From: a virus
Strand: one strand, 5' to 3'
IMG/VR virus record: IMGVR_UViG_3300028388_001520
Span: 1 to 34,254 of that record
DNA length: 34,254 bases
Part shown: in pieces, positions 27,503 through 34,117 of the stretch
Layout of the letters: each line of letters starts with the position of its first letter
How positions within the stretch are numbered: the stretch's first letter is position 1
The notes under the pieces: model-generated
Told to the model about the DNA's origin: nothing
Database searches by the model: none
The model's input: only the letters and a program-made list of their open reading frames with translations
Made by a program: the position numbers and the translations under genes

Positions 27503-28195
27503 TTAGATTTCTTCGAATAGAACATCATTCACATAGTCGTTCTTATCTTCTTCTGAGATACCCATTGCTAATATAGATGAGTGTAGCATCTTATTCATTT
27601 TCTGATTGATACAATATTTGTTCTGGGCTGCAGTAGTGTCTAATCCTTCGAGTGGTTTACGAAACACGAGTGTGTTCATGTAGAAGTCCGTAAGCGTACG
27701 CGCGGCCATACATAGTTGGTCAGCTTCTTCTCCCTCGCGCACGGCCCCGGCCGCGATCATATCTTTAGAAAAGATCTCAACCGCCCAAGGTGGAAGCTCA
27801 CGAGCTCGCTTCCACTCGAGAGTTTGGGTGATGTCAGCAAAAAACTTCATGTAGTCTTGCTGTGCTAGAGAGTCGTTAGTAGGCGAGTAATCGCAGAAGC
27901 AGCCGCTAATCTTATTCGGAGTCGCGACGATATCTAACCCAAAGATTGGAATATCCATATCGGCGGCTGGGAACACGTTCATATGCATGAGCCACATCTT
28001 TCGATTCTTACCACCGGGCTCGATAATCTTTAGGTGTGCTTTACGAATTTTATCAGAAGTCCAGAACCAATCTTCCCATCCTTCAAATCTATGAACATGT
28101 TTTTCATTTTCATATCGATCTAAGTTCGAATCAAACTCGCTTTTAATGTAGTTAGCCAGATCTCTCATCTGGTTTATCAAAGGTGTGTCTATCAT
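27503..28195 (-). CDS. pcyX: Ferredoxin-dependent bilin reductase (PcyX/PcyA-like)
   Basis: The enzyme reduces biliverdin with electrons from ferredoxin. Family landmarks: KIRKAHLKIIEPG (49-61), MHMNVFPAADMDIPIFGLDI (70-89), TPNKISGCFCDYSP (92-105) and RELPPWAVEIFSKDMI. His71 and Asp88 correspond to the catalytic His88 and Asp105 of PcyA, while the PcyA Glu76 position appears to be Lys56, pointing away from phycocyanobilin and toward a PEB-type product. This agrees with published phage PcyX enzymes, which make phycoerythrobilin; assignment to that clade is by gene context and rough likeness. Start overlaps the heme oxygenase stop (TAATG). A late promoter drives the pair. Confidence 0.85.
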   Translation of the reverse strand: MIDTPLINQMRDLANYIKSEFDSNLDRYENEKHVHRFEGWEDWFWTSDKIRKAHLKIIEPGGKNRKMWLMHMNVFPAADMDIPIFGLDIVATPNKISGCFCDYSPTNDSLAQQDYMKFFADITQTLEWKRARELPPWAVEIFSKDMIAAGAVREGEEADQLCMAARTLTDFYMNTLVFRKPLEGLDTTAAQNKYCINQKMNKMLHSSILAMGISEEDKNDYVNDVLFEEI

Positions 28196-28827
28196 TACAT
28201 TTCCCAGTCGTCGCCATAATCATCATAATTGTTCATCTTAGAAAGCAATGCTTCTGCGCTCTCATACTCTTCTGGGCTATTGTGGTATTCTTCAATTAGC
28301 TCATGAAATAATCTTTCAGCGTACTCAAAACAGATCTTCGCTTCATCAGCCATGCCATCATGAAGCAACTCTCGCACCCCTTGAATCAACCCACGTCGAT
28401 CTTCAAATTCGTACATAGTACCACTACCCGGAACGTTTCGTTTGATTATCTGCCCTCCGTGAGCGTCTCCGAAGTGTCTTACGTACAGATGAGCGAGCAA
28501 AGATTCGTTGTCGTTTTCTTCTACTAATGTTTGGATGTGACTCACGTATTCATTTACTGATGGTAGGGCTTCTTCAATTTCATCGAGGTCGAAAAGAGAC
28601 TCAAGCTCTTGTAAGTCTTGCTCAATTTGAGCTGACCTGAATATAGCTTCAATTTCCATTGGCACACTTACTGCAGATTCGAGGGCCATATAGTTTTGTA
28701 GTTGGGCGTGCAAGTATTTTTGGTAGAGACGAGGACTAATATCACCACTCAGTAGTAGATCTGCAAACTCAGTGCGCTCTGCGTTGTCATGATGTTGTCT
28801 AGTTAACTCTTTAAGATTATTTGCCAT
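28195..28827 (-). CDS. hemO: Heme oxygenase
   Basis: Heme oxygenase opens heme to biliverdin IX-alpha, iron and CO. LKELTRQHHDNAER (5-18) holds the proximal His (12 or 13), and YVRHFGDAHGGQIIKR (115-130) is the distal helix with the GD-x-x-GGQ signature (120-126). Length (210 aa) and helical content fit the family. The acidic tail (NNYDDYGDDWEM) is unusual. Biliverdin is the substrate of the bilin reductase whose ATG overlaps this stop, so the two act in series. AAGGAG lies before the ATG and the late promoter 28869-28876 is 42 bases upstream. Confidence 0.92.
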   Translation of the reverse strand: MANNLKELTRQHHDNAERTEFADLLLSGDISPRLYQKYLHAQLQNYMALESAVSVPMEIEAIFRSAQIEQDLQELESLFDLDEIEEALPSVNEYVSHIQTLVEENDNESLLAHLYVRHFGDAHGGQIIKRNVPGSGTMYEFEDRRGLIQGVRELLHDGMADEAKICFEYAERLFHELIEEYHNSPEEYESAEALLSKMNNYDDYGDDWEM

Positions 28828-32681: not shown

Positions 32682-32758
32682 TGGTGCCGCCACGAGGATT
32701 CGAACCCCGGACCGGTCGCTTACAAGGCGACAGCTCTGGCCAACTGAGCTATAGCGGC
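32682..32758 (-). tRNA. tRNA-Thr (anticodon UGU)
   Basis: The minus strand reads a 7-bp acceptor stem (GCCGCTA with TGGCGGC), a D arm with AGCTCAGTTGG, anticodon stem GTCGC/GCGAC around loop CTTGTAA (anticodon TGT), and a T arm with GGTTCGAATCC, then discriminator A and an encoded CCA. All parts are standard, so it should be functional. It may help translate ACA codons in late genes. Confidence 0.95.
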
Positions 32759-33352: not shown

Positions 33353-33381
33353 ATTATATATCATGTTCTTCTAATTGTCAA
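33353..33381 (-). promoter_or_regulatory. Sigma70-type early promoter for the mini-gene run
   Basis: TTGACA (33381-33376), 17-base spacer, TATAAT (33358-33353) on the minus strand; CAG precedes the -35. It overlaps the end of the 33378-33596 gene and starts a transcript that could run through the mini-genes, the tRNA and the PMM-like gene. Confidence 0.85.
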
Positions 33382-33596
33382 CTGTTTTTTTCGTCTTTGT
33401 AACGAGTAAACGTCATTACAAAACTTCCAATCATAGGAAGCAACGCACCAAGGAAGAGCATAAAGACTAGAACCCAATCTCCGTCAGCTGCCATTTGTAC
33501 GCCCCACAGTGGATAAGTCATTGCGCCGAAAAAGAAGAACATAAACTTATACATTTCAAGCGCGTTGGTAATGAATTGTTCAGTAAAGTTACTCAT
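33378..33596 (-). CDS. Small membrane protein (two helices)
   Basis: Two hydrophobic segments (YKFMFFFFGAMTYPLWGV and VLVFMLFLGALLPMIGSFVM) separated by QMAADGDW. AGGAG precedes the ATG. It sits directly downstream of the tmRNA on the same strand. Function unknown; holin-like topology but no supporting context. Confidence 0.65.
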   Translation of the reverse strand: MSNFTEQFITNALEMYKFMFFFFGAMTYPLWGVQMAADGDWVLVFMLFLGALLPMIGSFVMTFTRYKDEKNS

Positions 33597-33619
33597 GATA
33601 AAACTCCTAAGTTTCAGTT

Positions 33620-33945
33620 AAGGCGCCCGTTGCCAATTCTGAACCGGGACTTGGGTAACAAGGCTCCCGGCGAACCCCGTGAGGTTTACGCTGCTAGCGC
33701 AAAGTCCTCAGTATAAACGTCATCGTTTGCGTTTATTTTAGGTTGCTCTGTTTTGCGTCAGTGCTTGACGATTCTCCACTTTGATACTTAGCACCTGTCG
33801 AATCCATTACACCCCCATCAAAAACATACTACTTTAGTCGGACTTCCCATATGATACTCGCCAGTATCGGGCCTTCTCGGCAGTATGCTTTTGGTGGAGG
33901 TGGTGGGATTTGAACCCACGTCCAGATCACCTTTCTCTCTGCTTC
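33620..33945 (-). ncRNA. ssrA: tmRNA (ssrA), circularly permuted two-piece form, tag ANDDVYTEDFALAA
   Basis: On the minus strand the 3' acceptor part comes first: T arm GTGGGTTCAAATCCCAC, then CACCTCC-ACCA ending at 33892. A 75-base intervening loop follows, then the 5' part from 33816: GGGGGTG-TAATGGATTCGACAGG. GGGGGTG pairs with CACCTCC with a G-T wobble at the third pair, the alanine identity mark of tmRNA. Further on, AATAAAC-GCA starts the tag frame, 33730 to TAA at 33686 (tag ANDDVYTEDFALAA). A stem CCGGGA/TCCCGG (33644-33670) is a pseudoknot-type hairpin. Order acceptor-loop-coding is the alphaproteobacterial permuted form. The outer ends are approximate. Confidence 0.88.
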
Positions 33946-34117
33946 ATCGAATTCTTTGTTTGAGTGGATAAGACTTATTGTACTGCTCATAGCACTCACC
34001 GTGACAATTGTGTATGTCAGTAGACCAAGTTTCTGGGAGAGTAAAAACCCACGCTATAGAAACGACGATTGTCAAAACAGTCACAATAATTGGTACTAGA
34101 AAATCGTTTATATTCAT
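33944..34117 (-). CDS. 57-residue membrane protein upstream of the tmRNA
   Basis: Read directly: ATG 34117 overlaps the upstream stop as ATGA; TGA at 33944. One hydrophobic helix (FLVPIIVTVLTIVVSIAWVF) near the N-terminus, then a short part with two Cys (NCHGECYEQYN). Its end abuts the acceptor piece of the tmRNA, so both are probably on one transcript. Confidence 0.6.
   Translation of the reverse strand: MNINDFLVPIIVTVLTIVVSIAWVFTLPETWSTDIHNCHGECYEQYNKSYPLKQRIR

Follow-up and report, generated by a model that had tools for sequence, protein, structure and literature searches.

Two-piece tmRNAs are known from 53 phage records, mostly aquatic, among which Melnitz has been described in detail (PMC9004378), and a 2025 tmRNA database holds 79 unique phage sequences (PMC11915505). 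Because two-piece phage tmRNAs are already published, the permuted ssrA (tmRNA) gene analysed here belongs to a known type. It is encoded on a linear IMG/VR record of 34,254 bases, studied whole and referred to below as the window. Melnitz (a Methylophilales phage; MZ577097, 45984–46436; PMC9004378) resembles the window in being a T4-like aquatic myovirus with a permuted ssrA. In this cultured phage the tmRNA sits just upstream of gp33–gp59–thyX–gp32; the window tmRNA likewise lies upstream of gp33–gp59–gp32, on the same strand and ~7 kb apart.

Judged by its gene content, the contig is a fragment of a T4-like myovirus. It encodes T4-type gp41, UvsX, gp32, gp59 and gp33, which, with the same RNA family occurring in many viral contigs, upholds a preliminary description of the tmRNA as phage-borne. 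Also present are thyX, a phage-type lysozyme, SHMT, a Cpn10-like protein and a phosphomannomutase-like protein (PMM). The nearest relatives of the window gp41 are those of Caulobacter phage Cr30, Sinorhizobium phages and Melnitz (~50–53% identity). A ferredoxin-dependent bilin reductase and a heme oxygenase adjoin one another (27503–28195 and 28195–28827), as in PcyX-type phage cassettes, and have 16 viral relatives. The contig ends ~300 bases upstream of the tmRNA gene, which is flanked by small ORFs (Table 1). On the downstream side of the tmRNA, a perfect TTGACA-17-TATAAT promoter (33353–33381, minus strand) precedes small ORFs and a tRNA-Thr, and a related contig, L121, has by eye a promoter-like TTGACA/TATAAT at the matching place.

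The Rfam model tmRNA_permuted (RF04321) matches 33952–33686 of the minus strand with 113.9 bits (gathering score 47, E 1e-21), running end to end over model positions 1–213 and joining both halves in a single covariance-model match, the check that the preliminary description had proposed. ARAGORN calls a tmRNA* (permuted) at 33595–33984(−) with the tag ANDDVYTEDFALAA. The full length of the gene is matched by beta_tmRNA (RF01850, 33992–33619), making it slightly longer than first described. The earlier reading of an acceptor half preceding the coding half agrees with both RF04321 and the ARAGORN 'Permuted' call; its CCA end (33892), coding start (33816) and the 75-base loop between them on the minus strand are exact to the base, and the acceptor stem with its third-pair G–U, the TGGATTCGAC signature, and the tag with its stop all lie where it had placed them. 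Alanine identity features are present (the G–U third acceptor pair and the encoded CCA), and the tag frame is complete from the resume codon through the ...ALAA end to the stop. In the predicted fold of a single transcript, the acceptor stem continues into the long intervening hairpin; a predicted cofold of the two pieces without that segment restores the acceptor and T stems.

Table 1. Features of the tmRNA locus in the window and of associated RNAs in related viral contigs (L numbers).
Feature	Position	Strand	Basis or remark
Entire permuted ssrA (tmRNA) gene at its widest	33619–33992	−	RF01850 span (70.3 bits, below cut-off 84); RF04321; ARAGORN
Acceptor piece	33892–33952	−	Sequence, RF04321 alignment, ARAGORN domain map, covariation
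T-arm	33919–33903	−	Part of acceptor piece
Acceptor 3′ strand CACCTCC	33902–33896	−	Followed by A 33895 and encoded CCA 33894–33892
Intervening segment, 75 nt	33817–33891	−	Long hairpin, −24.0 kcal/mol, closing beside acceptor stem; removal expected
Coding (mRNA-like) piece	33619–33816	−	Sequence, RF04321, ARAGORN; 33619 is the edge of the beta_tmRNA match
Acceptor 5′ strand GGGGGTG	33816–33810	−	Third pair G–U; TGGATTCGAC comes next
Tag reading frame, GCA...GCG-TAA (ANDDVYTEDFALAA and stop)	33730–33686	−	ARAGORN
Small ORF, 57 aa	33944–34117	−	Directly upstream; 72% identity over 47 aa to peptide upstream of L165 tmRNA
Small ORF, 72 aa	33378–33596	−	Directly downstream; no Pfam match
tRNA-Thr(UGU)	32682–32758	−	Downstream of tmRNA; shared with relative L121
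Unclassified structured RNA element, first half, cut by contig end	34163–34254	−	95.7% identity over 92 nt to relatives' element
Unclassified structured RNA, ~190 nt, in relatives	L163 2664–2854; L157 8551–8740; L152 5993–6244; L335 393–661; L375 3873–4141		
Orphan abiF RNA (RF03085)	L149 7820–7857; L163 2617–2654; L168 5582–5618; L335 673–709; L121 7785–7816		
Hairpins, intervening or free-standing	L149 7924–7997; L152 5922–5980, 6083–6141; L157 8753–8811; L165 469–527		

The tRNA-like domains of 14 distinct phage permuted tmRNAs were aligned and inspected for covariation. Two-sided (compensatory) changes occur in 10 of the 18 pairs, a count reached by none of 500 shuffles, and 95.6% of cells in this alignment pair; with slid partners as controls, covarying pairs fall to 0–2. 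The T stem reads GUGGG/CCCAC in the window, GGGAG/CUCCC in L149, AGAGG/CCUCU in L157 and GGCGG/CCGCC in L168. The G3–U pair is invariant (14/14). Ten compensatory pairs together with this invariance indicate that selection keeps the RNA folded and chargeable; the tmRNA fold is maintained and is not a remnant. The E-value and the covariation over phage homologues exclude a chance match. A decayed remnant was considered and rejected on the compensatory changes and intact tag across divergent phages.

The locus is probably a functional permuted two-piece phage ssrA, serving ribosome rescue and tagging with host SmpB and carried as accessory cargo exchanged among T4-like phages. Searches of the contig and of five other phage records, complete Melnitz among them, found no smpB, which suggests dependence on host SmpB. 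Rescue with host SmpB plus tagging is the simplest reading because alanine identity, tag frame and ALAA end are intact and phage SmpB was not found, and ribosome rescue during infection is a plausible role on this sequence evidence. For the window tmRNA we infer transcription, processing, charging, rescue and proteolysis along the following lines. The transcript would fold into a tRNA-like domain with its acceptor stem running into the long intervening hairpin, which host tRNA-processing enzymes would excise (RNase P cutting at 33817/33816, and 3′ processing as far as the CCA encoded at 33892); base pairs would keep the coding and acceptor pieces together. The molecule would be charged via G3–U by host AlaRS and delivered by host SmpB and EF-Tu to ribosomes that have stalled where infection has broken the mRNA. 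The ribosome would resume on GCA, add (A)ANDDVYTEDFALAA and stop, and the tagged peptide would pass to host ClpXP-type proteases. Exchange of the gene would take place in an RNA-rich part of T4-like genomes. The E. coli tag AANDENYALAA is recognised by SspB and ClpX, and the window tag appears, by analogy, to resemble it in its ANDxxY start and LAA end. That tagging, as against ribosome release, is the selected trait does not follow from the tag ORF by itself.

With one residue left free, the tag occurs in 25 viral contigs, in 24 of which ARAGORN finds a permuted tmRNA; the 14-residue tag is identical to that of the window in eight further contigs (one with an extra leading A) and near-identical in 16 more. 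The same pattern, made slightly stricter by requiring a C two bases after the stop codon, has no match in 84,980 species genomes. The family ANDDVY[TFS]EDFALAA thus seems phage-only at the sensitivity used, and is, as far as we have seen, apparently new and widely spread. Its restriction to viral contigs would suit a tag that sends proteins to another fate, with host proteins selectively degraded or phage proteins spared, and the Melnitz authors propose selective degradation of host proteins (PMC9004378); we consider such retagging improbable, as the tag still has the usual ANDxxY...ALAA pattern and is expected to present adaptors and proteases with the signals found in bacterial tags. A broader T-arm plus acceptor pattern retrieved at least 119 stretches in IMG/VR, most with an ARAGORN tmRNA, and in all 87 permuted phage tmRNA genes were parsed. 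The intervening segment has a median of 68 nt in phage permuted tmRNAs (81 measured) versus 29 nt in sampled bacteria. Searches for the window's own intervening hairpin turned up no second copy: its 20-mer is in no other viral contig, and BLAST matches only itself. A direct blastn search against cultured phages gave nothing beyond 31–34-nt pieces, and the window tmRNA gene searched against 399 genomes of Thauera's order gave only ~33–46-nt matches in the T-arm region.

The preliminary description took permutation as a sign of an alphaproteobacterial host and donor, a step that the analysis does not support. Permuted tmRNA genes are also known in betaproteobacteria and cyanobacteria, so permutation is not an alphaproteobacterial mark and gives no basis for calling such a host. 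The alphaproteobacterial model suggested there (alpha_tmRNA, RF01849) scores 39.1 bits against a cut-off of 50, and beta_tmRNA 70.3 against 84. Comparing tags for the closest donor, as also suggested, leads to the viral contigs above and to none of the species genomes. We built a tree of 98 sequences, in which bacterial sampling is uneven because a 23-mer scan of genome contigs brought in numerous one-piece tmRNAs along with a set rich in Rhodocyclales. The window groups with five other phage rows (100/100), nested in 22 phage rows without a bacterium (95/96), which points to another phage as nearest donor. AU tests addressed the deep placement of the phage clade (an alpha, a beta or a single phage origin); forcing the window with the alpha-type (P = 0.144) or beta-type (P = 0.132) sequences is rejected in neither case, the bootstrap being not fully settled. 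On grounds other than permutation the host may yet be an alphaproteobacterium, because Cr30 and the Sinorhizobium phages, which are T4-like neighbours, infect that class.

Within the phages, the tmRNA and the replication genes have different relatives. The window tmRNA is 84–85% identical over ~310–320 nt to those of L149, L163 and L165, and gp41 of L149, L157 and L163 shares only 44–47% amino acid identity with the window gp41 (44–45% for L149 and L163). Conversely, relatives with gp41 at ~78–87% or gp32 at ~79–93% identity have no tmRNA on their sequence, which in each case is a fragment of a genome. L121 is such a neighbour (gp32 89%, PMM 73% identity): synteny with the window extends over its downstream small ORFs, tRNA-Thr and PMM, and upstream, at the matching place, it carries tRNA-Arg, tRNA-Pro, an abiF RNA and an unclassified RNA, with no tmRNA. 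Close replication relatives lacking the tmRNA and distant ones carrying similar copies resemble the pattern of exchanged phage cargo, and the gene looks like an accessory item swapped between T4-like phages, moving among genomes with very different replication genes. This patchy distribution, including close relatives without a tmRNA on the (fragmentary) sequence compared, is also what a captured or decaying passenger with no role would give, a reading made very unlikely by the compensatory pair changes and intact tag across divergent phages. Bacterial or prophage contamination has next to no likelihood: IMG/VR contigs can be misassigned and the gene is near a contig end, but phage genes fill the rest of the contig, the small ORFs and tRNA-Thr are syntenic with L121, very similar tmRNAs occur in other T4-like contigs and the tag is in no bacterial genome searched. 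We reject it on the T4-like tmRNA relatives and the L121 synteny.

In L149, L163 and L168 an abiF RNA (RF03085; 50.8–56 bits) lies ~5 nt upstream of the tmRNA; in L335 and L121 it adjoins tRNAs or other RNAs. Its exact 22-nt core occurs in 15 viral contigs, in several of them within tRNA clusters. AbiF is an abortive-infection toxin, and the abiF RNA acts as its antitoxin (PMC12373285). No Abi_2/AbiF gene was found in eight tag-sharing contigs or 14 further contigs searched, some of 94–174 kb, and the orphan RNA is a candidate phage-borne antitoxin decoy. Found beside tmRNA and tRNAs, such RNAs offer a testable link from phage RNA cargo to counter-defence. They also bear on the main rival to our reading: a spare, defence-resistant tmRNA that replaces host tmRNA destroyed by toxins or RNA-cutting defences, so that counter-defence, not extra rescue capacity, is selected. 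The relatives' neighbourhood of tRNAs and AbiF antitoxin-type RNAs would fit this, and evasion of tRNA-cutting defences has been proposed for phage tRNAs (PMC10264068); no resistance-conferring sequence feature was identified, however, and no abiF RNA was detected in the window at E ≤ 1. We regard a spare tmRNA as unlikely, and rescue with host SmpB as the preferred role.

A second RNA, of ~190 nt, is 94–99% identical (191 nt) in L152, L157, L163, L335 and L375, phages with distant replication genes, and has a variable hairpin inserted at one point. It stands upstream of the tmRNA in L152, L157 and L163 and inside tRNA arrays in L335 and L375. Against Rfam, the window copy has no match at E ≤ 1 and the L152 stretch only a sub-threshold one to whalefall-1 (E 0.065). 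A further unclassified RNA-like element is shared at 74% identity by L121 (7840–7984, beside the abiF RNA) and L165 (337–458, upstream of the tmRNA). The intervening hairpin of the L149 and L163 tmRNAs also stands free upstream of the tmRNA in L152, L157 and L165 (88–90% over 59 nt), and the L152 intervening hairpin is found again upstream within its own locus (92% over 63 nt), as if intervening hairpins were swapped in and out. These RNA-rich, exchangeable surroundings are apparently new as far as we have seen. More tentatively, the tmRNA may be one item of an exchangeable anti-defence RNA island, swapping with tRNAs, orphan AbiF antitoxin-type and unclassified RNAs, its removable loop a landing place for hairpin modules; if so, the island as a whole would act against RNA-based or RNA-targeting host defences.

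Set against described tmRNAs, the window gene shares permuted order and a tRNA-like domain with the alphaproteobacterial type (RF01849; tags ANDN...), but scores below that model's cut-off and has a tag starting ANDD, not ANDN. With the betaproteobacterial type (RF01850; tags ANDERFALAA and similar) it shares permuted order, an ANDx...ALAA tag and a full-length match, and differs in its sub-cut-off score, longer tag and longer intervening segment (75 nt versus a median of 29 in sampled bacteria). Melnitz, unlike the window, has the tag ANDNYVPVDYALAA and a 142-nt intervening segment, falls in the tree with alpha-type rows on a long branch apart from the window, and has a reported glutamine riboswitch, for which the window gave no match. 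Closest are the IMG/VR phage tmRNAs tagged ANDDVY[TFS]EDFALAA (L149, L152, L157, L163, L165, L168 and others), likewise on T4-like contigs, with the same or nearly the same tag and up to 84–85% nucleotide identity; they differ in their intervening hairpins and flanks, several having abiF or other structured RNAs directly upstream. With them, the window adds to phage tmRNAs a well-conserved, phage-specific branch.
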